Of a DNA stretch of 25,308 bases, positions 574-14,153 are shown in pieces; the stretch's first letter is position 1, and each line of letters opens with the position of its first letter. The position numbers and the translations under genes were made by a program. The stretch lies in IMG/VR virus record IMGVR_UViG_3300033551_000039, positions 1 through 25,308 of that record; one strand, given 5' to 3'. The stretch is from a virus. Below the pieces are notes generated by a model. It saw only the letters and a list, made by a program, of their open reading frames with translations, was not told the DNA's origin and ran no database searches.

Positions 574-2111
574 CGACCCGGGAGCGGGCTCAGCGCATCC
601 CCGCGGCGATCGCCACCCCTCGAGCGTTCATGCACGCCGCCACCGGTGGGCGGCTGAGCGGGAAGCCCCGCCACCTCCGGGTGCTCGACGAGCTGATGAT
701 CCGGGCGGCCACCGAGAAAGTGCGGGCCGTGGTCACCATCCCCGTCCGTATGGGGAAGAGCGAGCTGATCTCGGTGCACACCCCCGCGTGGTACGCGGGG
801 ACCTTCCCCGACCGGCGGTTCATGCTCGGCGGCCACACGGCGGAGCTGGCGAACGCCTTCGGCGGCCGCGCCCGCGAGCTACTCGAGGTGCACGGGCCGG
901 AGGCGTGGGGCATCACCGTCGCCCGCGGCTCGAGGGCCAAGGGCCGGTGGGACGTCGCCGGCCGAAGCGGCGGGTTCTTCGGGGCCGGTGTCGGCGGCGG
1001 CTTCACCGGCCGCGGCGCACACATGCTCGTGATCGACGACCCCCTCAAGAACCGCGAGCAGGCGTTCAGCCCCGAGGCCCGCGACGCTCAGCACGAGTGG
1101 CTCAAGAGCACCGCCCTCACCCGCCTCGAGCCGGGCGGCTCCGCCGTGATCGTCATGGCCCGGTGGCACTACGATGACCTCGCCGGAAGGATGGTCGCCG
1201 AGGGGTGGGAGGAGATCCGGATTCCGGCGCTGTGTGAGGACCCCGCGACCGACGTCCTCGGCCGCGGCTTCGAGCCCTGCCCGGTGTGCGCGGCGACGGG
1301 TGAGCAGGCCGACGGGTCCGCCTGCCACTACTGCGAGGGTGCCCGCGAGGTCGGTGAGGCGCTGTGGCCCGAGCGGATGGATCACCTCGAGCTAGCTCAG
1401 CGCAAGCTCGACTCCGGCGGCTACTGGTGGCTCGCCCTCTACCAGCAACGGCCGCCCCGGGAGATCGGCGCTGTGTTCAAGGCGGAGCACTTCAGGTATT
1501 ACCGCGAGACCGACACGTCGTACGTCCTCGGCGACCCCGAGCGCGGCGGGAAGGTCGTCGGCAAGCACCGGTGCCGCCGCTTCACGTACGCCGACCTGGC
1601 GGCGAGCACGAAACAGCGGGCGGACTACACGGTGTTCCTCACCGTCGCCCTCACCCCCGACCGCGAGCTGATCCTCCTCGACGTGGTGCGCCGCCGCGCC
1701 GAGGGTGCCGACAAGATCGCCCTCTTGCGGCAGACCTATGAGCGGGTCGACCCCCTCGCGATCAAGGTGGAGGACGCGACCTACGGGCTCGACCTCATCG
1801 CCGACGCCCGGCGGGAGGGCTACCCGATCGGGGCGGTGCACGCCGACGCCGACAAGGTGGCCCGCGCCATCCGCGCCGCCGTGCTGTACGAGGGCGGCCG
1901 GATCTGGCATCCGCAGGTCGCCCCCCCGTGGCTCGGTGCGTACGAGTCGGAGCTGCTCGAGTTCGACTCGGGGGAGCACGACGATCAGGTCGACACCATC
2001 GCGTATGCCGCGACGGATGCGGCGGGCTCGAGGCCCGCGCGCACGACTGCGCCGAAGGGTCGGCTCACCGGCCGGCAGGGCCGCGGACCGATGAGCCGCC
2101 GCGTTACGTGA
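570..2111 (+). CDS. Terminase large subunit with cysteine-rich insertion
   Basis: This is the ATPase/nuclease that drives DNA packaging. Numbered from the alternative GTG at 555, the Walker A region is IPVRMGKSE (62-70) and Walker B is MLVIDDP (157-163). A GEALWPERM..WWLALYQQRP segment (268-300) is typical of phage large terminases. The RNase H-like nuclease supplies acidic residues in FTYADLA (about 346), VEDATYG (about 406) and HDDQVD (475-480). Between the ATPase and GEALWPE lies an insertion with CPVC (242-245) and CHYC (257-260), which looks zinc-binding and is not part of the usual family core. GTG 570 gives a GTGA overlap with the small subunit stop; GTG 555 would add five residues. 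Function is confident, the exact start less so. Confidence 0.95.
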   Translation: MTTRERAQRIPAAIATPRAFMHAATGGRLSGKPRHLRVLDELMIRAATEKVRAVVTIPVRMGKSELISVHTPAWYAGTFPDRRFMLGGHTAELANAFGGRARELLEVHGPEAWGITVARGSRAKGRWDVAGRSGGFFGAGVGGGFTGRGAHMLVIDDPLKNREQAFSPEARDAQHEWLKSTALTRLEPGGSAVIVMARWHYDDLAGRMVAEGWEEIRIPALCEDPATDVLGRGFEPCPVCAATGEQADGSACHYCEGAREVGEALWPERMDHLELAQRKLDSGGYWWLALYQQRPPREIGAVFKAEHFRYYRETDTSYVLGDPERGGKVVGKHRCRRFTYADLAASTKQRADYTVFLTVALTPDRELILLDVVRRRAEGADKIALLRQTYERVDPLAIKVEDATYGLDLIADARREGYPIGAVHADADKVARAIRAAVLYEGGRIWHPQVAPPWLGAYESELLEFDSGEHDDQVDTIAYAATDAAGSRPARTTAPKGRLTGRQGRGPMSRRVT

Positions 2112-2133
2112 CGCCCGGCACCCGCTGTAGGAT
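2104..2133 (+). promoter_or_regulatory. Candidate promoter upstream of small-gene cluster
   Basis: A TAGGAT -10-like hexamer (2128-2133) lies 14 nt after GTGACG (2108-2113). The same CGTGACG-N14-TAGGATC arrangement occurs at 4273-4300. The -10 lies in a short inverted repeat, TGTAG (2126-2130) and CTACA (2138-2142). A strong ribosome binding sequence (GAGGGAGAGGA) follows before the ATG at 2168. There is no good -35, so this is tentative. Confidence 0.35.
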
Positions 2134-2167
2134 CGCGCTACACACACAGCCCGAGGGAGAGGACCCG

Positions 2168-2461
2168 ATGGCAGATTTGCTCACACCCGACGACCTCGAC
2201 TCGATCGACGCCGTGCTCGACGAGGGCCTCGTGGTGCAGGCCGACACGCTCGCCCTACTCGTCGCGACCGCCCGCGCCTATCACGCGAAGATGGGCGACC
2301 CGATCGCCGCCCGCGAGCAGGGGAGCGCCGCGCTCGAGCAGGCGGCGATCATGGTCGCCGCCCACTACGAACAGCTCAAGGCCCGCAACCTGCCCGATCA
2401 GCTCGTCCACGACCTCGTGGCCGACGTGCACCACGTCCTGATTACCGGGGGTGTGTCGTGA
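2168..2461 (+). CDS. Small helical phage protein, unknown function
   Basis: The ATG at 2168 follows a strong GAGGGAGAGGA ribosome binding site and gives 97 residues. The frame is open further upstream, but only this start has a binding site. The protein is mostly alpha-helical (IDAVLDEGLVVQADTLALLVATARAYHAKM, shown here as a helix-rich stretch around residues 14-43). I recognise no catalytic motif and no family. It is the first gene after the terminase and overlaps the next gene by GTGA, so it probably starts a translationally coupled operon. Possible roles are a packaging accessory or an unrelated small early protein; the sequence does not decide. Confidence 0.7.
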   Translation: MADLLTPDDLDSIDAVLDEGLVVQADTLALLVATARAYHAKMGDPIAAREQGSAALEQAAIMVAAHYEQLKARNLPDQLVHDLVADVHHVLITGGVS

Positions 2462-2859
2462 CCCTCGATCCGCGGACACTCGCGGAGGCCGCCGCCGAGG
2501 CCGCCGTCGCGGCGCACGAGATCAACGCCGCCGTCCACGAGGTCGAGCAGGAGGGCTCCGACGATGACGCGCTGACGATGCGCCGCGACGTGCGCCTGCT
2601 CACCGCCGTGTCTCAGGCCCTCGCCGCCTCGAGCGTGGCGCTGCACTCCGCCGAGGGACAGTGGCTCACCTCGAGCGAGGCGCTGCACCCCGCCGAGGGA
2701 CGGTGGATCACCGAGGAGGCCCTCGACCCCGACGCCCTCGAGCGACTCGCCGAGACCCGGTGCGGCCAGCTCAACGGGAGCTATGCCTGCGCGCTCCCCG
2801 ACGGGCACGAGGGGCCGCACGTCAGCATCACCCGTTGGTGGGACGGGGGTGGGTCGTGA
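2458..2859 (+). CDS. Small protein with C-terminal CxLPxGHxGPH motif
   Basis: 133 residues, GTG start overlapping the previous stop. The N-terminal half is helical and alanine/acid-rich. Residues about 61-88 hold a tandem repeat (ALHSAEGQWLTSSE followed by ALHPAEGRWITEE), visible at DNA level too. The C-terminus has CGQLNGSYACALPDGHEGPH; the C...CxLPxGHxGxH pattern recurs in actinophage small proteins and looks like a metal-binding knuckle (Cys, Cys, His, His). The function of such proteins is not known to me. It overlaps the next gene by GTGA, so it lies inside the coupled small-gene operon. Confidence 0.7.
   Translation: MTLDPRTLAEAAAEAAVAAHEINAAVHEVEQEGSDDDALTMRRDVRLLTAVSQALAASSVALHSAEGQWLTSSEALHPAEGRWITEEALDPDALERLAETRCGQLNGSYACALPDGHEGPHVSITRWWDGGGS
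2638..2721 (+). repeat. Two-unit 42-bp tandem repeat inside a coding region
   Basis: Units 2638-2679 and 2680-2721 are in-frame copies of 14 codons. They differ at a few positions and diverge most at their 3' ends. They encode ALHSAEGQWLTSSE and ALHPAEGRWITEEA. The length is a multiple of three, so copy number could change without frameshift. Confidence 0.75.
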
Positions 2860-3347
2860 CGCCGAAGGTGGGCGACACCCTGTGGCGGATGCGGTGGGTC
2901 GAGGGACCCGACCTCAAACGCACCCCCCGACGCCCCGAGCCGCTCGCGTGCGTGATCTTCGAGGTGGAGCCCCCCGGCAGCGACGGCGTGATCCGCCGCG
3001 ACCACACGACCGTCAGGTGGGCGGAGGACGTCGGCGGCGGCCGGGAGGTGCGCCGCCATGCCTTCGTCGGCTTGAAGCCCCACGACGTCGCCGCCGAGCA
3101 CGCCGCCGCCGTCGTCGCGTACCACCCGCCGACGGCGGTGAAGCTGTACGCGACGCCCGCCGGCGCACTCGATCAGGCGCGCCGCGAGGCGGAGGACCGG
3201 GCTGAGCGGGCGGCGGCGGACGTCGCTCAGGCCGTCGGCCAGGTCGACGCGATCACGGAAGCCATCGACGCCCTCCCCGGCGAATGCCGCTGCACCGGCG
3301 ACCGCCACGCCGCGCCGTGTTTCTACGAAGGGACCATCCGTGGATAG
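2856..3347 (+). CDS. Hypothetical phage protein with C-terminal cysteines
   Basis: 163 residues from a GTG at 2856 that overlaps the previous TGA; a longer frame upstream merely shadows the preceding gene. The N-terminal 80 residues look beta-rich (TPKVGDTLWRMRWVEGP, ACVIFEVEPPG). A charged alanine-rich helix follows (about 105-140). The tail has ECRCTGDRHAAPCFYEG, three cysteines and a histidine that could bind metal. I do not recognise the family. It ends eight bases into the next gene, so the operon continues. Confidence 0.65.
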   Translation: MTPKVGDTLWRMRWVEGPDLKRTPRRPEPLACVIFEVEPPGSDGVIRRDHTTVRWAEDVGGGREVRRHAFVGLKPHDVAAEHAAAVVAYHPPTAVKLYATPAGALDQARREAEDRAERAAADVAQAVGQVDAITEAIDALPGECRCTGDRHAAPCFYEGTIRG

Positions 3348-3531
3348 CCTCGCCACCGAACGCCCCCACCTTGGCCCGACGGACTTTCGCGAGGTCGCGT
3401 CGTTCGAGCGGTTCCTCGCCCTCGGCCGGCGGCCCGGCGACGACGTGCCCGCCGTGTGGCACCCGTACTGCACCGGCACCGGCCCCGCCCCCCCGACGCC
3501 GTGGTCCCCCGAGTTCACGGAGGTCGAGTAG
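3340..3531 (+). CDS. Small hypothetical protein
   Basis: 63 residues, starting at a GTG preceded by GAAGGGA at suitable spacing and overlapping the preceding gene by eight bases. The sequence is DSLATERPHLGP at the start and proline-rich at the end (GTGPAPPTPWSPEF). No domain is recognised. The stop TAG shares one base with the GTG of the next gene. Support is from tight packing, ribosome binding site and absence of a better frame. Confidence 0.55.
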   Translation: MDSLATERPHLGPTDFREVASFERFLALGRRPGDDVPAVWHPYCTGTGPAPPTPWSPEFTEVE

Positions 3532-3872
3532 TGGACTGGCGCAGCCCCGACGCGGTGGCCCTCGTCATCCTCAGCCTCGGCGCGTTCCGCCTCACCCGGA
3601 TCATCGGGTGGGACACCCTCGCCGGGCTCGTCCGCCTCCGCGTGTGGGCGACGGGCCGCCGCCTCGAGGATGACGGGTCGGTCACCGTCACCAACCCCCG
3701 CCGCCCCGAGTGGCTCGATCAGCTCCTCTCGTGCCCGTGGTGCCTCGGGTGGTGGGTCAGCCTCGCGACCGCGTTCGCGTGGTGGGCGTGGCCGACCGTC
3801 ACCATCGCCGTCGCCCTCCCCCTCGCGCTGAGCGCGGTCGTGGGGCTCGTCGCGAAGAACCTCGACCCGTGA
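3531..3872 (+). CDS. DUF1360-like membrane protein
   Basis: 113 residues; GTG start preceded by GGAGG. It has the DUF1360 hallmarks: an N-terminal ALVILSLGAFRLTRIIGWDTL segment (about 10-30) with the conserved FRLTR, a basic middle, then LLSCPWCLGWWVS (66-77) with the CPWCLG.W signature, and hydrophobic segments near 70-108. DUF1360 proteins occur in phages and Gram-positive bacteria and have no settled function; a membrane role is likely. The next gene starts at its stop by a GTGA overlap and is also a membrane protein, so the two may act together. Confidence 0.8.
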   Translation: MDWRSPDAVALVILSLGAFRLTRIIGWDTLAGLVRLRVWATGRRLEDDGSVTVTNPRRPEWLDQLLSCPWCLGWWVSLATAFAWWAWPTVTIAVALPLALSAVVGLVAKNLDP

Positions 3873-4081
3873 CCCGCGCCGGGGCCTCCCTCGTCACCCT
3901 CAGCGTCGGGCTCTTCGCCGTCGCCCTGTGGGCCGGGACCGTGCCGACCCCGATGCCGGTGTGGCGGGCGGTCCTCCTGCTCGCCACCCTCGGCGTCGGG
4001 TGGGCGCTGTGGTGCGCCGGGGTGACCTTCCTCGCCCTCGCCCTCGTGCGATGGTGGCAGGAACGGCGGGCGTGGCGATGA
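3869..4081 (+). CDS. Small two-helix membrane protein
   Basis: 70 residues from the GTG that overlaps the DUF1360-like gene. Two hydrophobic segments are plain, about residues 8-24 and 34-61, followed by a basic tail (RWWQERRAWR). The size and topology resemble small phage membrane proteins, including holin-like ones, but no endolysin is nearby, so I do not call it a holin. It overlaps the following gene by ATGA. Confidence 0.6.
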   Translation: MTRAGASLVTLSVGLFAVALWAGTVPTPMPVWRAVLLLATLGVGWALWCAGVTFLALALVRWWQERRAWR

Positions 4082-4296
4082 CCCCCGACCGGTGCCCCGC
4101 CTGCAGGCGGCCGTGGGGGGCGACGCGCGGCGAGCGCCAATGGCGGACGCTGACCACCATCCGCAAGATCGACCTCGCCCCAATCGACGAGCCGAAGCCT
4201 TGGCTCGTGGAAGCCACCTATCCGAATACGACGCTGCAGGTGTGCGGGGACTGCGCCGCCGCCCTCCCGAAGCGTGACGTCACCCGGCCCGTCTAG
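4078..4296 (+). CDS. Small zinc-ribbon-like protein
   Basis: 72 residues, ATG overlapping the preceding TGA. CPAC near residue 6 and CGDC near residue 59 form two Cys pairs at the two ends, consistent with a zinc ribbon closing a small beta domain. No function can be assigned. Its TAG stop lies inside the candidate promoter for the next gene, and the next gene is separated by about 40 bases rather than overlapping, so this is the end of one coupled set. Confidence 0.65.
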   Translation: MTPDRCPACRRPWGATRGERQWRTLTTIRKIDLAPIDEPKPWLVEATYPNTTLQVCGDCAAALPKRDVTRPV

Positions 4297-4305
4297 GATC
4301 TAGAC
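4273..4305 (+). promoter_or_regulatory. Candidate promoter with perfect inverted repeat at -10
   Basis: CGTGACG (4273-4279), 14 nt, then TAGGATC (4294-4300) copies the arrangement seen before 2168. The -10-like TAGGAT is centred in a perfect 6-bp inverted repeat, GTCTAG (4291-4296) and CTAGAC (4300-4305). It precedes a GAGGGAGAGG ribosome binding site and the GTG at 4339. No -35 of the TTGACA type is present. Confidence 0.4.
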
Positions 4306-4338
4306 CTTAGAAACCGACACGAGGGAGAGGACCCCGCC

Positions 4339-4584
4339 GTGTATGACCCCGATGAGCGAGAGGCGATGAGTGCCTACCTCGCGTCCGAGCACTACACCCC
4401 GGCACTCGTCGGGGCTGAGATCGAGCGGTGGACGAGCTCAGGCGGCGGCTTCGTCGTCGAGTTCCCCGTCCACGGGGACACGACCGCCGACGTCCACGAG
4501 GGCCGCGCCGGGGGCGAGCCGGGCCGCAAGCTCGGCCGCGCCGTCGGCCTCGTCCAGCTCGACGACCTCCTGCCGCGGCTGTGA
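4339..4584 (+). CDS. Hypothetical small acidic protein
   Basis: 81 residues. The GTG at 4339 has a strong GAGGGAGAGG site eight bases upstream and a short untranslated leader. The sequence starts MYDPDEREAMSAYLASEHY and has a central beta-like stretch (GGGFVVEFPVHGDTTADVHE). No family recognised. It opens the second half of the small-gene run and overlaps the next gene by GTGA. Confidence 0.65.
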   Translation: MYDPDEREAMSAYLASEHYTPALVGAEIERWTSSGGGFVVEFPVHGDTTADVHEGRAGGEPGRKLGRAVGLVQLDDLLPRL

Positions 4585-4877
4585 GGCCCGGGACGGAGGT
4601 GTACGACCGGTTCGAGCACGACCCGTGCATATGGTGCTCCGCCGCGCCCGGCGAGCTGCACGCTTACATCACGTGCCCCGGCAACGACGTCGACCGCCGC
4701 GTCGCGGAGGCGACCTCGAGGGCGGATCTGCGCGAGGTCGCCCGCCTGCGCGTCGCGTCCGGCCGGACCACCGGCCGCCTCGCCCCCGCCCCCGAGCGGG
4801 GGCCGCTGCCCGTCGCCCTCGGCCTCATCGGTGCCGGGCTCCTCGCCGCCTTCCTCCTCGGGTGGTGGCTGGGATGA
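4581..4877 (+). CDS. Small single-pass membrane protein with Cys pair
   Basis: 98 residues from GTG 4581, overlapping the previous stop; a GTG at 4599 is an alternative but has poor spacing to a binding site. CIWC at 16-19 and a further Cys at 32 suggest a small metal-binding head. Residues 78-96 (ALGLIGAGLLAAFLLGWWLG region) form one C-terminal membrane helix. A tail-anchored arrangement with a cytoplasmic metal-binding domain is the simplest reading. No family recognised. Confidence 0.6.
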   Translation: MRPGTEVYDRFEHDPCIWCSAAPGELHAYITCPGNDVDRRVAEATSRADLREVARLRVASGRTTGRLAPAPERGPLPVALGLIGAGLLAAFLLGWWLG

Positions 4878-5125
4878 CCCACGCCGGACAGATCGACGAC
4901 TCCGCCGGCGGGGCGGTCGCGTCCTGCTCGTGCGGGTGGGCCGCCGCGGGCGGTGACCTCACGACCGCCGAGGCGGCGATGCTGCTCGCCGGGCACTACC
5001 GTGAGCACCCGCCGGACGTGCCCCGCGACGGCCACATGCGCGGCCCCGGGTCGCCGTCCGCCCTCGTGCTCCGCCGCCTCACCACGCAGGCCCTCGAGCG
5101 CAGCACCCGGAGGTGGGGCTCGTGA
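4874..5125 (+). CDS. Small CSCGW-motif phage protein
   Basis: 83 residues, ATGA overlap with the preceding gene. The segment CSCGWAAAGGDLTTAEAAML with a following H..H (GHYREHP) is a recurring pattern in actinophage miniproteins and looks like a treble-clef or knuckle fold binding one zinc. Function unknown. The gene ends with GGAGG, which serves as the ribosome binding site for the next start. Confidence 0.65.
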   Translation: MTHAGQIDDSAGGAVASCSCGWAAAGGDLTTAEAAMLLAGHYREHPPDVPRDGHMRGPGSPSALVLRRLTTQALERSTRRWGS

Positions 5126-5388
5126 CGATCGACGTCCGCCAGGTCGACGAGCGCGCGATCCGCCTGCGCGTGAGCCTCCGACCCCGCCACGACCTCGCCG
5201 ACGCCCTCGACTGGCTCAACGGGGAGTGGGCGGCCTCCGGCTACGCCGCCCCCGTCCTCGTCGTGCACGACTGGCTCCGGACCCTCAGCCTCGCCGCCCA
5301 CACCGCCGAGCAGGCCCTCGAGGCGACTGCCCGCGGACCCGTCGATGACCCGTGGCCCGTTGACCGCTACGCAGGAGCGCGCCCGTGA
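5122..5388 (+). CDS. Hypothetical small protein
   Basis: 88 residues. GTG 5122 is preferred over GTG 5113 because GGAGG at 5109-5113 is then eight bases upstream and the start overlaps the previous TGA. The protein starts with a beta-like strand pattern (TIDVRQVDERAIRLRVSLRP), then helices. No motif recognised. It overlaps the next, very short gene by GTGA. Confidence 0.6.
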   Translation: MTIDVRQVDERAIRLRVSLRPRHDLADALDWLNGEWAASGYAAPVLVVHDWLRTLSLAAHTAEQALEATARGPVDDPWPVDRYAGARP

Positions 5389-5474
5389 TCTACGTCATCC
5401 CCGCCGCCGCCCTCGTCCTCACGTGCGTCGCCGCCGTGTGGTCGCGGTGGACGTCCTCGAGGTGGGGCGGCTAG
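5385..5474 (+). CDS. 29-residue single-pass membrane miniprotein
   Basis: A GTG at 5385 overlaps the previous stop and is preceded by AGGAG. It encodes 29 residues: MIYVIPAAALVLTCVAAVWS forms one membrane helix, followed by a short tail RWTSSRWGG. Similar tiny membrane genes often close small-gene operons in actinophages. Support is the coupling, the binding site and the clear hydrophobic helix; no function can be named. The terminator begins seven bases after the stop. Confidence 0.55.
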   Translation: MIYVIPAAALVLTCVAAVWSRWTSSRWGG

Positions 5475-5480
5475 AACGGC

Positions 5481-5507
5481 CGCGGCCCCCGGTGGACGGG
5501 GGCCGCG
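5481..5507. terminator. Hairpin terminator between convergent operons
   Basis: An 11-bp perfect stem (5481-5491 with 5497-5507, nearly all G:C) closes a 5-nt loop GTGGA. There is no U-tract. It sits between the last plus-strand small gene and the stop of the minus-strand cassette, so it could serve both directions. Confidence 0.75.
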
Positions 5508-5530
5508 TGTCACACCTCGAGGCCGGGGGG

Positions 5531-5788
5531 TTAGACGATCCGCTCGCCGTCGCGGGTCGCGCCGCCGACGGGGAGGGTGGTGAACCGGACGTTCTCGGGG
5601 CCGTTGCCGTAGAAGAGGCCGCTGATCTCGTCCCACGGGGCGACGCCGATCTGGCTGTACTGCGCCGCGTGCTTAGACCACGCGACCTCAAGGATGCGGA
5701 GGGCGTGCGCGTCGTCGGTGCCGACCGCCTGGAAAGTGAAGTTCCGGGTCTCAAGGGTGGCGATGGTGATGGTGGGCGTGTCGGTCAT
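5531..5788 (-). CDS. Hypothetical protein, last gene of minus-strand cassette 1
   Basis: 85 residues, starting at the ATG whose complement is 5786-5788 with GGAG upstream; longer frames run into the upstream gene. Sequence begins MTDTPTITIATLETRNFTFQ and contains HALRILEVAWSKHAAQY, SGLFYGNGPENVRF and a GERIV end. It looks like a small alpha/beta protein. I do not recognise a function. It overlaps the upstream gene by ATGA, so it is translated from the cassette transcript starting near 6334. Confidence 0.7.
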   Translation of the reverse strand: MTDTPTITIATLETRNFTFQAVGTDDAHALRILEVAWSKHAAQYSQIGVAPWDEISGLFYGNGPENVRFTTLPVGGATRDGERIV

Positions 5789-5988
5789 CGGGGGCTCCGA
5801 TCCGGGTCGAGGCGGATGATCGCCTCGGAGGGCTGGCGGTCCTCGTGCACCTGCGCGTCGGCGAGGGCCTCCCCCTCGTACGGGGTCCACATGCCGATCG
5901 ACCTGCCGCACGAGCAGATCGCGCGGTGCAGGTCGAGGCGGCTCCCGCCGACGTCGTGGCGGTGGAGGATGGTGACCGCGTGCGTCAT
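5785..5988 (-). CDS. Small CSCG-motif protein, cassette 1
   Basis: 67 residues from the ATG complementing 5986-5988, which overlaps the stop of the upstream gene. CSCGRSIG near residue 25 with histidines at 9, 11 and 21 suggests a single small metal site. The middle is a short helix (YEGEALADAQVHEDRQ). Function unknown. It is coupled on both sides by ATGA overlaps, so the three cassette genes are probably produced together. Confidence 0.7.
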   Translation of the reverse strand: MTHAVTILHRHDVGGSRLDLHRAICSCGRSIGMWTPYEGEALADAQVHEDRQPSEAIIRLDPDRSPR

Positions 5989-6302
5989 GCCGTCACCTCC
6001 GGGGTGTAGGCGTCGGCGACGTCCATCGGGCCGCCGAGCAGCGGGTCGATCTCCCGGTAGCAGGCGCGGCACACGATGCCGTGCTCGCCACCCTTCGCGG
6101 AGGCGTCACAGCACGTCGTGAGCCCGTACTGCAGCCCGTCGCACTGCACGACGAGGTAGCCCTCGTCGCTGAGGCCGACGAAGCGGGGCGACTCGATCCC
6201 GAGGTCGGCGTACTCGGGGTCGGCCTCGAGGAGCCGGACGGGGACCGCGACACGGGCACCCGAGGCGAGGGTGACGGTGCGGTGATCGGAAGTGTGGGGC
6301 AT
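5985..6302 (-). CDS. Small Cys-rich protein (CCxAS-KG...VCRACY), first gene of cassette 1
   Basis: 105 residues. The ATG complementing 6300-6302 has GAGGAGG five bases upstream; an ATG eleven codons earlier lacks one. The N-terminal half is beta-rich (TVTLASGARVAVPVRLLE). The C-terminal part has TTCCDASAKGGEHGIVCRAC followed by YRE, a metal-binding pattern that I associate with widespread actinophage miniproteins of unknown role. It lies directly downstream of the strong minus-strand promoter at 6334-6363. Confidence 0.75.
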   Translation of the reverse strand: MPHTSDHRTVTLASGARVAVPVRLLEADPEYADLGIESPRFVGLSDEGYLVVQCDGLQYGLTTCCDASAKGGEHGIVCRACYREIDPLLGGPMDVADAYTPEVTA

Positions 6303-6325
6303 GTGCGCCTCCTCGGCGTCGGGGT

Positions 6326-6365
6326 GTGGACACACACTACAGCGGAGGCGTGGGCCGTGTCAACG
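6326..6365. repeat. 40-bp promoter repeat, copy 1
   Basis: Two perfect 17-bp arms, GTGGACACACACTACAG and CGTGGGCCGTGTCAACG, flank a variable 6-bp core. The same arrangement recurs at 14154-14193. It contains the whole minus-strand promoter, so it is a duplicated regulatory unit rather than a random repeat. Confidence 0.9.
6334..6363 (-). promoter_or_regulatory. Minus-strand promoter of cassette 1
   Basis: On the minus strand TTGACA (6363 to 6358), 18 nt, then TAGTGT (6339 to 6334). The -35 is a perfect sigma-70-type match and the -10 fits TANNNT. Transcription would enter the three-gene cassette about 25 bases downstream. The same promoter recurs before cassette 2. Confidence 0.75.
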
Positions 6366-6372
6366 TGGACAC
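6357..6372. promoter_or_regulatory. Candidate operator over two divergent -35 boxes
   Basis: GTGTC (6357-6361) and GACAC (6368-6372) form an inverted repeat with a 6-nt spacer. It covers the -35 of the minus-strand promoter (6358-6363) and that of the plus-strand promoter (6366-6371), which are two bases apart. A dimeric HTH protein bound here would block both. Binding is inferred only. Confidence 0.4.
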
Positions 6373-6394
6373 CCGCCACCCCCGCGTGTAGCCT
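6366..6394 (+). promoter_or_regulatory. Plus-strand promoter of the HTH gene operon
   Basis: TGGACA (6366-6371), 17 nt, then TAGCCT (6389-6394). The -35 matches TTGACA at five of six positions. Downstream TGTATCCACAC resembles the start region of the divergent promoter (TGTGTCCACAC). A leader with AGGAAGAGGACC leads to the ATG at 6434. Confidence 0.6.
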
Positions 6395-6433
6395 GTATCC
6401 ACACTAACCCGCTCGGCCAGGAAGAGGACCCAC

Positions 6434-6646
6434 ATGACCACGAGCACGAACACCGGCGAGGAGATCGCCGACAAGGTGAAGGCCGCCGGCAAGGCGTGGC
6501 GGAAGGCCGCGACCACCGAGCAGCGCCTCCGCGCCGAGCGCGACGAGGCGATCGTCGCCGCCGCGCAGGCGCAGCTCGGCGTCCGCGAGATCGCCCGGCT
6601 CGCGCAGGTCGACCCGACGCAGGTGTCGCGGGTGCTGAACCGATGA
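6434..6646 (+). CDS. Small HTH DNA-binding protein (candidate regulator)
   Basis: 70 residues, ATG with AGGAAGAGGA upstream. Residues 15-47 form a charged helix that may dimerise. Residues 48-69 (LGVREIARLAQVDPTQVSRV) are a clear helix-turn-helix with the typical alanine and the hydrophobic spacing of the recognition helix. It is the first gene after a divergent promoter pair with an inverted repeat across both -35 boxes, so autoregulation and control of the opposite cassette is a natural guess. It could instead be a general actinophage HTH protein with another target. It overlaps the next gene by ATGA. Confidence 0.75.
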   Translation: MTTSTNTGEEIADKVKAAGKAWRKAATTEQRLRAERDEAIVAAAQAQLGVREIARLAQVDPTQVSRVLNR

Positions 6647-7077
6647 CCCGCGCCGTCATCGCCGCCGCCGCGATCCTCGCCGCCGCGGCGCTCACCTCGA
6701 GCGACCGCGCGCAGGCTCAGCAGGCCGTCGGGTTCTACAACCCCGCGACGACGGTCTCGTGCTGGACGCGGACCGGCTCGAGGTTGGTCTGCTATCAGGA
6801 GTCGACCGCCACGTGGGCGTGGATCGACACCCGCGGCCGGTCCGGCCGCCAGCGCGGCGCGACGCAGCCCTACCGGCCGCCGTACCGCCTCCGGGTGAAC
6901 GCCCCCTACGTGACGATGCCCGGCGGCTTCCGGTGCGACGTGACGTACGCGAAGCGCGACGACCGGCCGATCCTCGTGTGCGTCGCCCCCACCCCGGACA
7001 AGGCCCTCGGTGCCCTCCGGGATTGGGGGTTCTACTTCGCGACCCGGGGCGCGGCTCACCGCCCCCCCACGGCATGA
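6643..7077 (+). CDS. Secreted or surface four-cysteine protein
   Basis: 144 residues. The N-terminus (MTRAVIAAAAILAAAALTSS) is a signal peptide with an AQA site after residue 25. The mature part has four cysteines, at 40, 50, 98 and 113, suited to two disulfide bonds outside the membrane, and tryptophan/tyrosine-rich strands. A secreted protein in a head gene cluster is not a standard virion component. Its position right after an HTH gene suggests an accessory or lysogenic-conversion role such as altering the host surface, which is a guess. I do not recognise the family. Confidence 0.7.
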   Translation: MTRAVIAAAAILAAAALTSSDRAQAQQAVGFYNPATTVSCWTRTGSRLVCYQESTATWAWIDTRGRSGRQRGATQPYRPPYRLRVNAPYVTMPGGFRCDVTYAKRDDRPILVCVAPTPDKALGALRDWGFYFATRGAAHRPPTA

Positions 7078-7358
7078 GCGGCCACCCCGAGGACTTCGGC
7101 GATCGGTACACCGACGCTATCCGGGGGAAGGCGAAGAACGCCGCGACCCTCGCCGACCTCGTGGGCCGCCTCGCCCCCGATGAGCCGGTGTTCGTGCTCA
7201 TCGGCCGGGACCTCCTCGCCCCCCTCGCGATCCAACAGTACGCGGAGGGGGCGCGGCGGGCTGGCCGCGAGGAGTTCGCCGCCGACGTCGAGGCGCGGGG
7301 GATCGACTTCCTGCGGTGGCAGGCCGCCAACCGCGGCCGCGTGAAGCTCCCCGACTAG
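7074..7358 (+). CDS. Small conserved phage protein (DEPVFVL..RDLLAP type)
   Basis: 94 residues, ATGA overlap with the secreted protein gene. The segment LAPDEPVFVLIGRDLLAPLA followed by IQQYAEGARRAG resembles small actinophage proteins in which a DEPVFVLRGxD motif precedes a helix. Function unknown. The end is basic (RWQAANRGRVKLPD). The stop TAG shares one base with the next GTG. Confidence 0.65.
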   Translation: MSGHPEDFGDRYTDAIRGKAKNAATLADLVGRLAPDEPVFVLIGRDLLAPLAIQQYAEGARRAGREEFAADVEARGIDFLRWQAANRGRVKLPD

Positions 7359-7576
7359 TGCCCTACTCCGTCATATGGACCGGTCCCGGCCCCGCCGACA
7401 ACGTGGATCACTTCACCGGGGTGAAGGTCACCGACCGCCCCCACGGCAAGGGCCGGTGGGCGGCGGACGCGATCGCCGAGGTGATGGCCGCGAACCCCGA
7501 CGCTCAGGCGCTCGGGGCCACCCTGCACGTCGCGGGCCTGTGCCTCGGCACGTGGGAGGTAGTGCCCGCACCCTAA
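7358..7576 (+). CDS. Small hypothetical protein
   Basis: 72 residues from a GTG that shares its first base with the preceding TAG. It looks like a small alpha/beta fold: PYSVIWTGPGPADNVDHFTG, a helix WAADAIAEVMAANPDAQALG, then a strand ATLHVAGLCLGTWEVVPAP. No recognised family. It is the last gene of the HTH operon and is followed at once by an imperfect hairpin. Confidence 0.6.
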   Translation: MPYSVIWTGPGPADNVDHFTGVKVTDRPHGKGRWAADAIAEVMAANPDAQALGATLHVAGLCLGTWEVVPAP

Positions 7577-7626
7577 GTGCGCGCCCCGCCGGTGAGGTCC
7601 CGGACGTGCCCTCCCGGCGGGCGCAC
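7577..7626 (+). terminator. Imperfect hairpin after the HTH operon
   Basis: GCGCCCCGCCGG (7581-7592) pairs with CCGGCGGGCGC (7614-7624) with one bulged C and a loop of about 21 nt. No U-tract follows. Position directly after a stop codon and before a new promoter-like element supports a terminator; fold quality is moderate. Confidence 0.4.
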
Positions 7627-7639
7627 GCGCAGTCGAGGC

Positions 7640-7668
7640 TAGCGGCCCCGCCGGGTGGCGGATACCAT
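7640..7668 (+). promoter_or_regulatory. Candidate late promoter before the portal block
   Basis: TAGCGG (7640-7645), 17 nt, TACCAT (7663-7668). The identical -35-like hexamer and spacing with TACCGT occur before the protease gene (11380-11408), and TTGTGG-N17-TACCTT before the capsid gene. The pattern differs from the TTGACA promoters at 6334-6394. Confidence 0.5.
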
Positions 7669-7703
7669 CGGCGTCGTTCACGTCGAGCAGGAGGACCCCG
7701 GTT

Positions 7704-7790
7704 ATGGGATGCGGCTGTGGTGGATCACGTCGGCCCCGGCCAGCGAGCGCGCCGAAGCCCCCCGCCGACCCCGCCCCACAGGGCGGATAG
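7704..7790 (+). CDS. 28-residue N-terminal Cys protein before the portal
   Basis: ATG at 7704 follows AGGAGG at good spacing. The product starts MGCGCGGSRRPRPASAPKPP and is 28 residues long, with a Cys-x-Cys N-terminus, a basic patch and a proline-rich tail. The portal GTG comes directly after its TAG without a gap, so it is translationally coupled. Tiny proteins starting with clustered cysteines next to portal genes are seen in other actinophages; their function is not known to me. It may have escaped annotation because of its size. Confidence 0.6.
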   Translation: MGCGCGGSRRPRPASAPKPPADPAPQGG

Positions 7791-9614
7791 GTGGCGAGCA
7801 CTCGTCGCCTCACGGGCCTCGCGCTCGTGGGGCGCTCGAGCCGCCCCGCCGACGAGGGCGGCGCTGACCCGCTGAGGTCCGCCGTGCGTGCCGTGACCGC
7901 CGCCGCAACGCGGATGGCGGACCCGGTGGTCAAGGCGACCCCCGCGAAAAAGCCGCGGTGGCAGGAACGGGCGTGGGCGTATTACGACTCCCTCGGCGAG
8001 ATCCACTATGCCGGCGAGTTCTTCGGTGCCAACCTCGGCCGCGTCCGCCTCCTCGCCCAAAAGCGGACGGCCGATGGCGAGTGGGAAGAGACCACCGACG
8101 GACCCGCCGCCGAGCAGCTCGAGCGTATCCGCGGCCCTCGAGGCGACCGGTCTGAGGTGCAGGGTGCGTTCGGCACGACGATGTTCTGCGTCGGGGAGGG
8201 CTACCTCGTCGGCACACAGGACCCCGAGGACCCGAGCCGCGAGGTGTGGGAGTTCCTCAGCGCCGACGAGTTCACCGTCAACCCGCGGGAGCGCAAGGCC
8301 GAGCGCAAGCGGGAGCCCCACGACAAGCGGAAGGTCACGTATGACCTCGTGACCGACCTCGGCTCAGAGATCAGCGACGGGGAGGCCCTCGCGATCCGCA
8401 TGTGGGAGCCGCATCCCCGGTGGTCGGACCTGCCGGTGTCGCCGCTCATGGCGGTCCTCGACGCCTGCGAAGAGCTTCGCCTCCTGCCGCGCGCCGTGAG
8501 GTCGCGCGCCAGGTCGCGGCTCGCGAGCGCCGGGGTGCTCGTCATCCCCCACGAGATCACCGACGGCGGCGGCCCCTCCCCCGCCGAGGCGCAGGGGATG
8601 GACGAGGACCCCGCCGTCGATCCCTTCCTCAGCGACCTGATCGACAACGCCGCGACCGCCATCAACGACGAGGATTCCGCGGCCGCCGCCGTGCCGATCG
8701 TCCTCCGCGTCGAGGGTGAGCACGCCGACAAGGTGCAGCACCTCAACTTTGTCGATGCCCGCGTCGCGTACCCCGAGACCGAGCGGGAAATGCACGTCAT
8801 CCGCCGGATCGCTCAGGGCCTCAACCTCCCCCCCGAGGTGCTCCTCGGGATGGCGGACGCGAATCACTGGTCGGCGTGGCAGATCAGCGAGGCGATGTGG
8901 ACGCAGCACCTCGAGCCGCTGTGCGTCGCCCTGTGCGCCAACCTCACGTCCGCGATGGTCGTGCCGGTCGCGGGGGTCGAGTACCGCGTGTGGTATGACG
9001 ACTCGGAGCTAGTCACGAAGCCCGACCGCACGGGCGACGCGAAGGAACTGCACGACCGCCTCGCGATCAGCGACGCCGCCCTCCGCGAAGCGGGCGGGTG
9101 GACGGACGAGGACGAGCCCGACGACGAGGAGCGCACCCGTCGCATCGGGGTGCTCCTCAAGGACGCGAAGCTCGCGATCGACGGGGAGGTCACCGAGGCC
9201 CCCGCCCCCGTCATCGCCCCGCCGGGTGGTGCTCCGCCGCCGCCGGCAGGCGGCCAGCCCGGCACGACCGACCCCGGGCCGCCCTCCCCGGATGGGGCGA
9301 CCGCCGGGGCTTTCACCGTCGCCGTCGTGCGCGCCCGGGAGGCGGCGGGGGCGAAGGTGCTCACCCGCCTGCAGCGCAGCAACGGGATGCGTGAGGAGGT
9401 CGAGCACCTCGGCCTCCGGGCGCTGCCCCGCGATCAGGTCTGCGCCGTCCTCGGGAGGGAGCGCCTCGAGCGCCTCGGCCTCGAGCCCGCCGACCTCGTG
9501 GCAGGCTCGACGACGTGCCTCGTCGCCGCCGGGTACCCCGCCGACCTCGCCGACGAAGCCGAACGGCACGCCGCCGCCCACCTCTTCACGGCGGTGATTC
9601 CGCCCCCGTCGTGA
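7791..9614 (+). CDS. Portal protein
   Basis: 607 residues. The dodecameric portal is the DNA gate at one capsid vertex. The diagnostic part is the segment around residues 335-367: VIRRIAQGLNLPPEVLLGMA followed by DANHWSAWQISEA, a signature of actinophage portals. Residues about 60-250 hold the usual crown/wing core. A Pro/Gly-rich linker (about 470-505) leads to a C-terminal extension of about 100 residues with helices (GAFTVAVVRAREAAG and later), longer than a minimal portal. The GTG start directly abuts the 28-residue gene. It overlaps the MuF gene by GTGA, the usual portal-MuF order. Confidence 0.92.
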   Translation: MASTRRLTGLALVGRSSRPADEGGADPLRSAVRAVTAAATRMADPVVKATPAKKPRWQERAWAYYDSLGEIHYAGEFFGANLGRVRLLAQKRTADGEWEETTDGPAAEQLERIRGPRGDRSEVQGAFGTTMFCVGEGYLVGTQDPEDPSREVWEFLSADEFTVNPRERKAERKREPHDKRKVTYDLVTDLGSEISDGEALAIRMWEPHPRWSDLPVSPLMAVLDACEELRLLPRAVRSRARSRLASAGVLVIPHEITDGGGPSPAEAQGMDEDPAVDPFLSDLIDNAATAINDEDSAAAAVPIVLRVEGEHADKVQHLNFVDARVAYPETEREMHVIRRIAQGLNLPPEVLLGMADANHWSAWQISEAMWTQHLEPLCVALCANLTSAMVVPVAGVEYRVWYDDSELVTKPDRTGDAKELHDRLAISDAALREAGGWTDEDEPDDEERTRRIGVLLKDAKLAIDGEVTEAPAPVIAPPGGAPPPPAGGQPGTTDPGPPSPDGATAGAFTVAVVRAREAAGAKVLTRLQRSNGMREEVEHLGLRALPRDQVCAVLGRERLERLGLEPADLVAGSTTCLVAAGYPADLADEAERHAAAHLFTAVIPPPS

Positions 9615-11194
9615 CCCCCTCCGCCGACGACCTCAACCGGGGGGTCGCGGCGGTGCACGAGGCCCTCGAGCCGCTCGTCGAGCTGCTCGAGCACCCGATC
9701 GCCGTCGCCATCCGGGACCTCGCCGCCCGGTGCGCCCGCGACCTCGAGGCGGGCCTCACCGCCGCCGCCGCCCCCGGGTGGGAGGGGCCAGACCCCGAGG
9801 CCCTCACCGAACGCCTCCGCCGGCGGCACGACGAGGCGTGGCGCTCCCGCCACGAGGGCCGCGTCGAGCGGGTGCAGGTCGAGGCGATGCGCCGCACCTA
9901 TGACGCGATGGGGGCCGCGCTCGGCGTCGACCTCACCCTCCGCAACCCCGTCCTCGACGGGCAGGTGCGCCAGCTCCGCAACCGGTCCACCCTCCCCGAG
10001 TCGGCGTGGCTCGACGTGAGGGAGTCGCTGCAGCGCAGCGCCGACGCGGGTGACGGCATCCGCGAGGCGTCGCGCCGCCTGCGGACCGACGTCGGCGGAA
10101 TGTCGGGGTACCGCTCGAGGATGATCGCCCGCACCGAGCTAGTCGGCATCGCCAACCGCGGGTCGATCACCGCCGCCCGCCTCGCCGGGGTCGGCGGCTT
10201 CAAAACCTGGCAGGCGACCAACGACGCCCGCACCCGCGCCGCCCATGCCCTCGCCCACGGTCAGACCGTCCCCCTCGACGACACGTTCTCGGTGATGGGC
10301 GAGGCGATGGACTACCCGGGGGACCCGATCGGGTCGGCGGCCAACGTGATCCACTGCCGGTGCACCGTCACCTATTCCGACTCCCCCGACGGGACGAACC
10401 TGCCGATGGCGGAGCCCGCCGGGGCTGAGCTCGGCCCGGCCCCCGTCGTCGAGGAGGCCCCCGCCGGCAGGGCCGTCGCGGATGCCGTCGAGGTGATGTT
10501 CAAGAGCCCCACCCGCCGCGCCGAGGTCGAGGCGAGCCTGCGGAACATCGGGGACCTCATCCGCCTCCCCGACGACGCACCCCCGATCCGCCTCCCGATC
10601 CAACAGAAAGGCAAGACCAAGACCCGCGGCGGCGCGTACTGGCAGCGCCGCGGCGGGAGTGGCGCGCTCGAGCCCGAGCGGATCACCCTCAACGATCTGC
10701 AGCACGGGGACGGCATCCGGAGGGTGTGGCTCGAGGATCGCGTCGCCCTCGCCCACGAGATCGGCCACCACATCGACCACTGGTACCTGCGCGCAGTCGA
10801 CGGCCGGGAGTTCCGGGCGGGCCTATCGAGTCGCGACGCGATGCTCGCCGCCCACCGGGGGGTGGACCCCCCCACCGAGTTCGGCCGGGCCTTCGCCGAG
10901 GTGTACCGCCGCATCCTCGCCAGCCCCACATGGCGGGAGCTGCTCAAGGTCGAGGGCCAGTTCGGGACCTACCTGCGCTCAGCCGAGGAGCTTTGGGCGC
11001 GGGCGTTCTCCCAATGGGTCGGCACCCGATCAGGCGACGAGGCGATGCTCGCCGCGTACCGCGATGCCGTCCGGTACCGGGACTTCGCCACCGACCGGTG
11101 GGGGATCGGGATGGACCATTGGACGGATGAGGAGTTCGCCGAGATCGCCGACGCGATCGACGACATGTTCCGGGAGGCGGGGATGCTGAAGTGA
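9611..11194 (+). CDS. MuF-like head morphogenesis protein fused to a zincin-like domain
   Basis: 527 residues, GTG overlapping the portal stop. Residues 160-255 are a MuF/SPP1 gp7-type domain: RMIARTELVGIANRGSITAA, then FKTWQATNDARTRAAHALAHG, and the end NVIHCRCTVTY with the typical CRC. MuF proteins bind the portal and enter the prohead in small numbers. After a linker (260-295), residues about 355-475 carry ALAHEIGHHIDHW, an HExxH zinc-metallopeptidase motif (His382, Glu383, His386), and a downstream SAEELWARAFSQWV (457-470) whose Glu fits a third ligand, as in gluzincin-like phage polyvalent-protein domains. The fusion suggests an enzyme packaged in the virion, perhaps injected. Peptidase activity is inferred. 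Confidence 0.88.
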   Translation: MTPSADDLNRGVAAVHEALEPLVELLEHPIAVAIRDLAARCARDLEAGLTAAAAPGWEGPDPEALTERLRRRHDEAWRSRHEGRVERVQVEAMRRTYDAMGAALGVDLTLRNPVLDGQVRQLRNRSTLPESAWLDVRESLQRSADAGDGIREASRRLRTDVGGMSGYRSRMIARTELVGIANRGSITAARLAGVGGFKTWQATNDARTRAAHALAHGQTVPLDDTFSVMGEAMDYPGDPIGSAANVIHCRCTVTYSDSPDGTNLPMAEPAGAELGPAPVVEEAPAGRAVADAVEVMFKSPTRRAEVEASLRNIGDLIRLPDDAPPIRLPIQQKGKTKTRGGAYWQRRGGSGALEPERITLNDLQHGDGIRRVWLEDRVALAHEIGHHIDHWYLRAVDGREFRAGLSSRDAMLAAHRGVDPPTEFGRAFAEVYRRILASPTWRELLKVEGQFGTYLRSAEELWARAFSQWVGTRSGDEAMLAAYRDAVRYRDFATDRWGIGMDHWTDEEFAEIADAIDDMFREAGMLK

Positions 11195-11415: not shown

Positions 11416-12744
11416 ATGGACGACTGGCGCGCGATCCTCGCCGTCGAGGGCTCGCCCACGGGGGACGGCCGGTTCTTCGATCTCGGCGCGTTCACGTGGC
11501 GGGACCTCCCGCTGACCCTCATGTATCAGCCCGCGGTGGCGGGCGGACACGACGGGGCGTTCCCGATCGGGTCCATCACGTCGATCATGCGGGTGAGCAC
11601 CGGCCCCGCGCAGGCCGACCTCATCGGCACCGGCACGTTCGCCGACTCGAGCGACCCCGAGGTGCTCGAGGCTCAGCGGATGATCCGCGAGGGCCACGTC
11701 ACCGGGGTGTCGGTCGACTTCGCCGCCGACCTCTACCGCGTCGCCCCATTCGAGGAGGGTGTCACCCTCGTCACCGAGGACGGCCGCCCCGTCGGCGGCG
11801 ACCTGGCGGAGCCCGATGATGCGTGGGTGCAGATCGAGAACGTCGTGAACTTCCGGGTGCAGGCCGCGACGATCCTCGCCGCGACCGTCGTCGCCACCCC
11901 CGCGTTCGCCGAGACCACGATCGAGCCGACGGCGATCGCCGCCGGTGCGTACAGCCCCCCGGACGTCCCGCCCGCCGAGTGGTTCCACGACCCGCAGCTC
12001 GAGCGGCCCACCCCGCTACGGGTGGACGCGGACGGCCGGATCTTCGGCCACCTCGCCGCGTGGGGCTCGTGCCACATCGGGATGCCGGGGTGCTTCACCC
12101 CGCCGCGGTCGGCGACGAACTACAGCCTCTTCCGCCTCGGTGAGATCGCCACGACCGGAGGCCCCGTCGCCGTCGGTCAGATCACCATGAGCACGGGGCA
12201 CGCCGACCTCACCGCGAGCCTGCACCGCACGCAGGAGCACTATGACGACACGGGCCTCGCGGTCGCCGACGTCGCCGCCGGCGAGGACCCCTACGGGATT
12301 TGGGTCGCGGGTGCGATCCGCCCGGGGCTCAGCGTCCACGACGTCGCCGAGCTGAGGGCCGCGAAGCTCAGCGGGGATTGGCGGCGGTACGAGGGGAACC
12401 TCGAGCTAGTCGCCGCCCTCGCCGTCAACGTCCCCGGCTACCCGGTGCCGCGCGGCGAGTTCGCCCCCGGCGACTACGAGGACGAGGCGGTGTCCCTCAT
12501 CGCGGCGGGGGCCGTCCGCGTCGGCTCCCGCCGCGGCACCCTCGAGGGCCGCATCACGCACCTGCGCCTGAACGGCGTCGTCGCGTCGATCGGCACCCCG
12601 GATGAGCGGCAGGCCCTCGAGGCCCTCGCCGTCCGCGTGCACGGCCGGGACCTCGCCCGCCTCGGTGAGCGCGCCCACGCCGTCGCGCTCGAGCACCTCG
12701 GCCGCCGACTGCACCACGTCGGCGGCCCGGTGGGGGACGACTAG
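11416..12744 (+). CDS. Capsid maturation (prohead) protease
   Basis: 442 residues from ATG 11416; a GTG at 11407 would add three. The start DWRAILAVEGSPTGDGRFFD and ALPLTLMYQ-like region match HK97-type prohead serine proteases of actinophages. His45 (GGHDGAFPIGSI) and Ser99 (VTGVSVDFAAD) are the likely catalytic pair. The second half has CHIGMPGCFTPPRSATNY, VGQITMSTGHADL, HYDDTGLAVADVAAGEDPYG and LELVAALAVNVPGYPVP, a block typical of this family, followed by a helical tail that may be removed or act as scaffold. It processes the capsid precursor. Its stop overlaps a convergent gene's stop at a shared CTAG. Confidence 0.9.
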   Translation: MDDWRAILAVEGSPTGDGRFFDLGAFTWRDLPLTLMYQPAVAGGHDGAFPIGSITSIMRVSTGPAQADLIGTGTFADSSDPEVLEAQRMIREGHVTGVSVDFAADLYRVAPFEEGVTLVTEDGRPVGGDLAEPDDAWVQIENVVNFRVQAATILAATVVATPAFAETTIEPTAIAAGAYSPPDVPPAEWFHDPQLERPTPLRVDADGRIFGHLAAWGSCHIGMPGCFTPPRSATNYSLFRLGEIATTGGPVAVGQITMSTGHADLTASLHRTQEHYDDTGLAVADVAAGEDPYGIWVAGAIRPGLSVHDVAELRAAKLSGDWRRYEGNLELVAALAVNVPGYPVPRGEFAPGDYEDEAVSLIAAGAVRVGSRRGTLEGRITHLRLNGVVASIGTPDERQALEALAVRVHGRDLARLGERAHAVALEHLGRRLHHVGGPVGDD

Positions 12745-13004
12745 CGCAGGAGCGCCGCGACCCGCGCGAGGTCGTCGGTGTCGCTGAGCGGCATCCCGAC
12801 GATGCGAGCGCCGAGGTCGGCGTCGCTGAGGTGCGTGAGGCAGATCCCGAGCCTCGCCGCGCACCCGCGGATGAGGTCGGCGACCGTCGGCTCGTCATCA
12901 TCGGCGAGCCTCGAGTCGGGGACGATGTGGGCGAGGATCACCCGAGGGTCGGTGAACAGCTCCCGGCGGGGGTCGAGGATGCCCGCGTCGAGGGGGCCGG
13001 TCAC
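12741..13004 (-). CDS. Hypothetical protein, last gene of minus-strand cassette 2
   Basis: 87 residues; GTG start (complement of 13002-13004) overlapping the upstream stop. It is an alpha/beta protein with TVADLIRGCAARLGICLTHL and LSDTDDLARVAALLR. No motif of known function. Its stop codon uses the same CTAG as the converging protease gene, so the two transcripts overlap unless a terminator acts within the genes; no hairpin was seen between them. Confidence 0.65.
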   Translation of the reverse strand: MTGPLDAGILDPRRELFTDPRVILAHIVPDSRLADDDEPTVADLIRGCAARLGICLTHLSDADLGARIVGMPLSDTDDLARVAALLR

Positions 13005-13231
13005 GACTCACCCCGCTCGAGGGCTTCCCGCCGCCCCTCGTGGTGCTCGCAGCGGACCACCCCGTCGTCCCACGGCCGCACGGTGCCCTCACAGGCGTCC
13101 CCCTCCTCGACGCACGGCGGGGGAGGGGGCGGGAAGTCTGCCGGGGTGAGCGGTCCGCCCCGCTGCTCGGTGTAGCTCGGCGGCGGGACGAACCCCTCGA
13201 GGTCCCGGGCGATCTCGCCGGGGTCCCTCAC
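13001..13231 (-). CDS. Small proline-rich protein with Cys residues, cassette 2
   Basis: 76 residues from a GTG that overlaps the upstream stop (complement of 13229-13231). It contains a proline run (ADFPPPPPPC) and cysteines at 40, 47 and 61 with CEHHEGRRE, which could bind one metal ion. The pattern D..CEGTVRPWDDGVVRCEHHEG is typical of small actinophage proteins of unknown role. It lies in the middle of the coupled minus-strand operon. Confidence 0.6.
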   Translation of the reverse strand: MRDPGEIARDLEGFVPPPSYTEQRGGPLTPADFPPPPPPCVEEGDACEGTVRPWDDGVVRCEHHEGRREALERGES

Positions 13232-13446
13232 GACGTCACCCGGTGGCCGACGAGCGGCCGTCGGGCGTCGAGCACCACGACCGGGGGGCGAGCCCCCGGC
13301 CGCAGGCCCGACCCGTAGCACGACGGGCAGGCGTCGACCGGCTCCCACAGGGACGGGGCGACCTCCTGCCAGTCGTCACCGGTGCCGTCGCACGTCGGGC
13401 ACCGGTGCTCGGGGGGGATGGTCTCGGGTGCGTACGCGATCGGCAC
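13228..13446 (-). CDS. Small DnaJ-type zinc-finger protein, cassette 2
   Basis: 72 residues, GTG start one base after the upstream stop. Two CxxCxGxG repeats, CPTCDGTG (near residue 16) and CPSCYGSG (near residue 40), match the DnaJ Cys-rich zinc-binding unit; only two of the four repeats of full DnaJ are present, enough for one zinc site. There is no J domain. Phages and plasmids often encode such stand-alone fingers; the role is unknown, perhaps protein or nucleic-acid binding. It is coupled with its neighbours. Confidence 0.75.
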   Translation of the reverse strand: MPIAYAPETIPPEHRCPTCDGTGDDWQEVAPSLWEPVDACPSCYGSGLRPGARPPVVVLDARRPLVGHRVTS

Positions 13447-13447
13447 G

Positions 13448-13909
13448 TCACTCCCCCTCGATCTCGGCGGCGAGGCCCGCGTCGGTGCGCCCGGCGATGG
13501 CGGGGCCGAGGAGGCCGATCTGCGAGCCGCTGAGGGCGACGCGGCCCTCTCGCGCCCACGACTTGACGACGATGGTCGGGCCGTTGATCTCGAGCACCTC
13601 GGCGGTCGCGCCGCCGAGCCCGCTCTTCACGGTCATGCCGATCACGACGTAGTGGCCGCGCTCGAGCGCCTCACGGGCGATCGCGAGGCCCCGTTCGTTC
13701 CGGGCGGCCTTCACCTTCGGGTCGCGGTGGGCGACGACAAGGGTGTTGTGAACCGCGGCCTTCAGCTCGCGGAGGTCGAGGTCGAGCAGCCCGAGGCCCT
13801 CGACGGCGGCGCTCAGGGCCTCCGCCTGCTCGGGGGAGCCCCCGGCGGCGGTGACCATCGAAAGGACGTTCTGGCGCTCGGAGTCGGTCGTGTGAGTGGT
13901 GCGTCCCAT
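13448..13909 (-). CDS. Hypothetical protein with C-terminal SH3-like beta domain
   Basis: 153 residues; ATG (complement of 13907-13909) preceded by GGGAGAGGACC, the leader seen before several genes here. N-terminal residues 1-80 are helical (SPEQAEALSAAVEGLGLLDL). From about residue 85 there are strands: HYVVIGMTVKSGLGGATAEV, LEINGPTIVVKSWAREGRVA, LSGSQIGLLG, resembling a small SH3/KOW-like barrel. No function can be assigned. It is the second gene of cassette 2 and has its own binding site, 28 bases after the first gene's stop. Confidence 0.65.
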   Translation of the reverse strand: MGRTTHTTDSERQNVLSMVTAAGGSPEQAEALSAAVEGLGLLDLDLRELKAAVHNTLVVAHRDPKVKAARNERGLAIAREALERGHYVVIGMTVKSGLGGATAEVLEINGPTIVVKSWAREGRVALSGSQIGLLGPAIAGRTDAGLAAEIEGE

Positions 13910-13937
13910 GTGTGGGTCCTCTCCCGTGTGGGTTGGT

Positions 13938-14123: not shown

Positions 14124-14153
14124 CGCGGGGTCCTCTTCCCTCGTGCTCACCTT

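Follow-up and report, generated by a model that had tools for sequence, protein, structure and literature searches.

Putative divergent SigA-type promoters between the terminase and portal genes of an uncultured phage: probably an ordinary boundary of transcription units, with a possible operator

Two predicted promoters of the SigA type stand back to back between the terminase and portal genes in the window, i.e., the whole stretch of viral DNA that was analyzed (25,308 nucleotides; IMG/VR record IMGVR_UViG_3300033551_000039, positions 1 to 25,308). The feature is probably real and of an ordinary kind, with a possible candidate operator. We consider it likely, judging from the sequence, that the pair represents the boundary of two ordinary divergent transcription units at which polymerase binding would be mutually exclusive. 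The elements of this interval are as follows.

6327 to 6363, minus strand: P_L1, predicted SigA-type promoter, TTGACA-N18-TAGTGT-N4-CCA(+1)CAC
6366 to 6401, plus strand: P_R, predicted SigA-type promoter, TGGACA-N17-TAGCCT-N4-CCA(+1)CAC
6357 to 6372: GTGTC-N6-GACAC palindrome, the two -35 boxes lying next to each other and not an independent element
6325 to 6341: 17-bp imperfect dyad TGTRG-N7-CYACA, over the -10/+1 region of P_L1
6387 to 6403: 17-bp imperfect dyad TGTRG-N7-CYACA, over the -10/+1 region of P_R
6434 to 6646, plus strand: gene of a 70-aa protein with a weak C-terminal helix-turn-helix (HTH) match, first in the rightward unit, with Shine-Dalgarno sequence AGGAAGAGGA upstream
5985 to 6302, minus strand: first leftward gene, 105 aa, phrog_6276 (a family of unknown function), with Shine-Dalgarno sequence GAGGAGG
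About 5785 to 5988 and 5531 to 5791, minus strand: second and third small leftward genes, within 5531 to 5988
5478 to 5511: 14-bp GC-rich hairpin between convergent genes, a candidate terminator without a T tract

Divergent promoters had been claimed for positions 6326 to 6433 in a sequence-only reading of this DNA, and they are present exactly as described and exceed chance. In P_L1, a perfect -35 box (TTGACA, 6363 to 6358; 6 of 6 matches) is followed after an 18-bp spacer by TAGTGT (6339 to 6334), and in P_R, TGGACA (6366 to 6371; 5 of 6 matches) is followed after 17 bp by TAGCCT (6389 to 6394), such that the -35 hexamers are separated by 2 bp and the predicted start points by 74 bp. When both strands of the window were scanned with relaxed criteria (at least 5 of 6 matches to TTGACA, a spacer of 16 to 19 bp, and TAnnnT), only three sites were recovered, namely, P_L1, P_R, and a copy at 14191 to 14162, and all three were followed, after about 25 to 33 nt, by a gene with a Shine-Dalgarno sequence. 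Dinucleotide shuffles gave an expectation of 0.37 sites, and 1 of 100 shuffles reached three. P_L1 and P_R were not reported by an E. coli-type promoter and terminator scan of the window, since such a scanner is blind to their GC-rich TAGnnT -10 boxes. GC3 values of 0.92 to 0.97 support the small genes that adjoin the promoters on both sides, and ORF 6434-6646 (GC3 of 0.97) is of the coding type. A cruciform or RNA structure at 6300 to 6440 (z = -4.0) was also considered and was rejected; the fold is what two similar promoters in mirror-image arrangement produce, and the greater part of it precedes both predicted transcripts.

P_L1 and P_R belong, on the basis of their layout, to a predicted family of about five phage promoters in the 25-kb fragment, the others being P_T (about 2140), P_L2 (14155), and P_MCP (about 14396), in which a TTGACA-like -35 box, 17 to 18 bp, TAGnnT, N4, and a CYA(+1)C initiator follow one another.

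2104 to 2142, plus strand: P_T, TTACGT-N18-TAGGAT-N4-CTACA, with a weak -35 box (boxes 2104 to 2133), directly after the terminase gene
14155 to 14191, minus strand: P_L2, near-identical to P_L1, preceding a second leftward cassette (12741 to 14123)
14361 to 14397, plus strand: P_MCP, TTGTGG-N17-TACCTT-N4-GCAC (boxes 14361 to 14389), without the TGTRG dyad, preceding the major capsid gene

The 41 bases at 6325 to 6365, which hold P_L1, recur at 14153 to 14193, again leftward, with 37 of 41 positions identical. Four of the family promoters are located about 25 to 33 nt before the start of a gene with a Shine-Dalgarno sequence, and the P_MCP leader is about 99 nt long. The stretch from P_MCP to the major capsid gene (14361 to 14494) contains blocks that are conserved in a related contig, L089. 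Before the gene at 4339, the segment from 4290 to 4340 carries CGTGACG-N14-TAGGAT, a P_T-like layout without the initiator and possibly a further promoter.

Conservation could be followed in two contigs from one other metagenome, L008 and L089, which are fragments of one or more sister viruses. The L008 terminase is 84% identical and the L089 protease 73% identical to the counterpart in the window, and L089 was retrieved by promoter pattern alone when 2.9 million viral contigs were scanned. A further contig, L006, derives from the virus of the window itself (99.99% identity, with one mismatch over 13 kb) and therefore does not count as independent evidence. The P_T ortholog in L008 (4054 to 4070), again after the terminase gene, keeps the TGTAG and CTACA arms around a diverged N7, and the P_L2 ortholog (L089, 761 to 799) keeps TTGACAC, TGTAGnnT, and CCACA with a changed spacer and N7. 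Likewise, L089 preserves the P_MCP boxes, although the spacers have diverged. This evidence comes from P_T, P_L2, and P_MCP, the sister contigs being without the region from about 2180 to 9360 that holds P_L1 and P_R. When viral contigs were scanned for TGTAGNNT-N4-CYACA with GAGGACCC downstream, four were recovered: that of this virus, L008 and L089, and one in which the pattern falls by chance within an unrelated terminase-like gene. In a more distant relative, L179 (portal 55% and protease 56% identical), a leftward cassette is preceded by TTGACT-N18-TATTAT-N4-CCACG. In two promoters of this relative (L179/G001, 46483 to 46512 and 53372 to 53401), the -35 box is covered by a near-perfect dyad, TGACCTNATNAGGTC, and one of these promoters is near an ORF that we take to resemble a tyrosine integrase; these dyads and the integrase-like ORF suggest that L179 is temperate and uses an operator type of its own.

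A DNA similarity search of a phage collection gave no match to the window, portal and capsid scans for close relatives returned only the virus itself or none, and a terminase scan of genome contigs yielded only distant relatives in other phyla. Portal and capsid relatives indicate that the host is probably an actinobacterium. Elsewhere in the window, a MuF-like head protein (9515 to 11194) matches LPD1 weakly in its C-terminal part, where a HEIGH-type (HExxH) metalloprotease motif is also present, ORF 22740-23957 among the tail genes presumably resembles a glycoside hydrolase (family 26-like), and ORF 2458-2859 contains a tandem 42-bp direct repeat that is 90% identical (2627 to 2710).

A start-site signal recurs at a fixed distance from the -10 box. 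Among 49 TAnnnT sites pooled from the window, L008, L089, and L179, the tetramer (C/G)(C/T)AC (SYAC) was found at exactly N4 after the box in 12 cases (0.8 expected), compared to 0 to 2 at other offsets, so that a peak occurs only at offset 4. The nominal P value of 2e-11 is optimistic because the 12 sites include orthologs and duplicates and are not independent, and 3 of them (7575, 7119, and 24699, minus strand) look like chance sites within genes. The same test on two other actinophages gave 0 at that offset. In SigA-type promoters, transcription starts 6 to 8 nt after the -10 box, and the fixed-offset CYAC fits a start point, with the predicted +1 at A6327 for P_L1 and at A6401 for P_R. 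TAnnnT-N4-SYAC provides a simple rule and predicted start points for an uncultured phage group without annotated close relatives, and the promoter family helps to delimit the transcription units of this group.

Anatomy, repetition, and family conservation are read in the DNA itself, whereas transcription and mutual exclusion are inferred, and any repression considered below would be hypothetical. Both promoters would be used by the host sigma-A-type polymerase. P_L1 would drive the leftward cassette of three small genes, with termination probably occurring at the hairpin near 5478 to 5511 (z = -2.4 on the plus strand; 5 of 200 shuffles fold equally well), and P_R would drive the rightward unit, in which the small HTH gene is followed by a gene for a secreted or membrane protein, toward the portal and head genes. 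The usual polymerase footprint extends from -50 to +20; footprints of this size on P_L1 and P_R would overlap by about 27 bp, and therefore one polymerase would load at a time and the two promoters would compete.

Compatible with two ordinary divergent units, and not exclusive of them, is the possibility that the leftward genes form a moron-like accessory cassette, with its own promoter and terminator, that was inserted between head genes; P_L1 would then have been copied from P_L2 or the reverse, and the divergent geometry would be an accident of insertion. We give this reading slightly less than an even chance. The cassette does have its own predicted promoter and is closed by the candidate hairpin, and P_L1 resembles P_L2 more closely (37 of 41 positions) than P_L2 resembles its own ortholog (29 of 41). 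Moreover, the terminase-portal gap of L179 (about 1.5 kb) holds no homolog of the HTH gene or of the leftward genes; however, L179 is a distant relative with a different terminase, and any insertion may or may not be recent, the sister-virus contigs being without this interval.

A regulated switch, in which a dimeric repressor on TGTRG-N7-CYACA would shut the P_T, P_L1, P_R, and P_L2 units together, appears unlikely. The repressor could be either the 70-aa HTH protein or an immunity repressor whose gene lies beyond the fragment. The dyad occurs in exactly four exact copies in 25 kb, at these four promoters and each over the -10/+1 region, where shuffles lead one to expect 0.015, and a center-to-center distance of 62 bp, or about six helical turns, separates the two copies that flank the divergent pair. 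P_T orthologs keep both arms even though 5 of the 7 N7 positions differ, and CYACA accompanies TGTAG in 6 of 6 instances, while conserved promoters without TGTAG carry SCACG. Against this, the pattern was defined only after the sites had been seen, its left arm largely coincides with the -10 box and its right arm with the initiator, and P_MCP and the L179 promoter have the initiator but no left arm. The dyad is thus a better operator candidate than the palindrome, but it may also be read as a -10 box plus initiator.

Nor is any protein tied to the dyad, and the HTH assignment of the 70-aa protein is weak. That assignment, likely from the sequence, rests on a match to Pfam HTH_38 (E = 5e-4; 20.1 bits) that does not reach the curated cutoff of 27, and several HTH families match residues 38 to 70 weakly, all below their curated cutoffs. 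Homolog searches of viral contigs, phages, plasmids, and solved structures returned the same virus or insignificant matches, and these searches brought up no homolog or binding-site evidence for the protein as a repressor. A single-sequence structure model gave one long helix and a short one (pTM of 0.47) and is low in information. As in a lambda-type immunity switch, the divergent promoters overlap, with -35 boxes 2 bp apart; regulators on both sides are not found, the first leftward gene being without an HTH and matching phrog_6276 only. Such a switch also has several related operators to which its regulator binds; here, TGTRG-N7-CYACA is present at both promoters but can be split into a -10 box and an initiator. 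It is less probable still that the dyad serves as an operator, built into the promoters, for a previously undescribed actinophage regulon of at least four units, with the HTH protein binding it to balance head-gene transcription against the leftward cassettes. If the dyad is a true operator, the phage would coordinate the units of its structural region via the -10/+1 region of host-type promoters; if not, the site is an ordinary divergent promoter pair.

The palindrome, GTGTCAACGTGGACAC at 6357 to 6372, spans both -35 boxes as originally written, and its proposed role as a switch operator was not supported. It consists of TTGACAC and TGGACAC, i.e., two juxtaposed -35 boxes, each extended by one C. 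P_L1, P_L2, and L089 share conserved TTGACAC, P_R has TGGACAC, and because P_L2 and L089 preserve this C with neither a partner box nor a palindrome, the sequence can be explained without an operator. It is missing from P_L2 (14191 and L089, 761) and P_T and from the other family promoters, and the window contains no second exact copy; with one mismatch allowed, there were 2 matches versus 1.8 expected. The HTH protein repressing both promoters from this palindrome, which does exist and adjoins the HTH gene, is therefore very improbable for a single occurrence built from -35 boxes and the following C.

The sequence-only reading had also held that no regulator is expected between terminase and portal genes. 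This expectation is contradicted by known phages, since an HTH gene is annotated in this interval of Gordonia phage Valary, as in the window, and the corresponding interval of Streptomyces phage TurkishDelight includes leftward genes together with a divergent junction; with comparable genes in Valary, TurkishDelight, and Corndog, the position of the HTH gene is unsurprising. Neither a TTGACA/TAnnnT promoter nor an initiator signal at offset 4 was found in the terminase-portal intervals of TurkishDelight and Valary, and the TurkishDelight divergent gap was rejected as a counterpart of P_L1/P_R because its promoter architecture does not match.

Multiple short repressor sites are dispersed over an actinophage genome in the phiC31 CIR system. 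The window differs from phiC31 and from the cluster A stoperators in its sequences, its four sites, and the lack of a recognized repressor or integrase in the fragment. Cluster A immunity likewise involves multiple short repressor sites across the genome (PMC9283540). The 18-bp inverted repeats of Microbacterium cluster EG (PMC7302621) and the ESAS/SAS of cluster K (PMC3203893) are described, in the sections used here, as lying in small intergenic gaps shortly before start codons, with the cluster K repeats associated with a conserved start-proximal motif (PMC3203893). Unlike the window dyad, these repeats have other sequences and are found among right-arm nonstructural genes, and those sections do not report promoter overlap.

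In the cluster O mycobacteriophages (Corndog), the SigA-like promoters include a divergent pair, PL1/PR2, close to the left end, and the structural operon contains small leftward genes that are served by SigA-like promoters of their own; one of these genes encodes a putative DNA-binding protein (PMC4351075). Corndog thus resembles the P_L1/P_R region in its SigA-like divergent pair, its leftward genes in the structural operon, and a repeated 17-bp dyad. The Corndog divergent promoters are AT-rich with leaderless mRNAs predicted (PMC4351075), in contrast to the leaders of 25 to 33 nt here. Its dyad, TGTTCGG-N3-CCGAACA, occurs in more than 30 copies, mostly away from promoters (PMC4351075), whereas TGTRG-N7-CYACA is of another type, with every one of its copies lying on a -10/+1 region.
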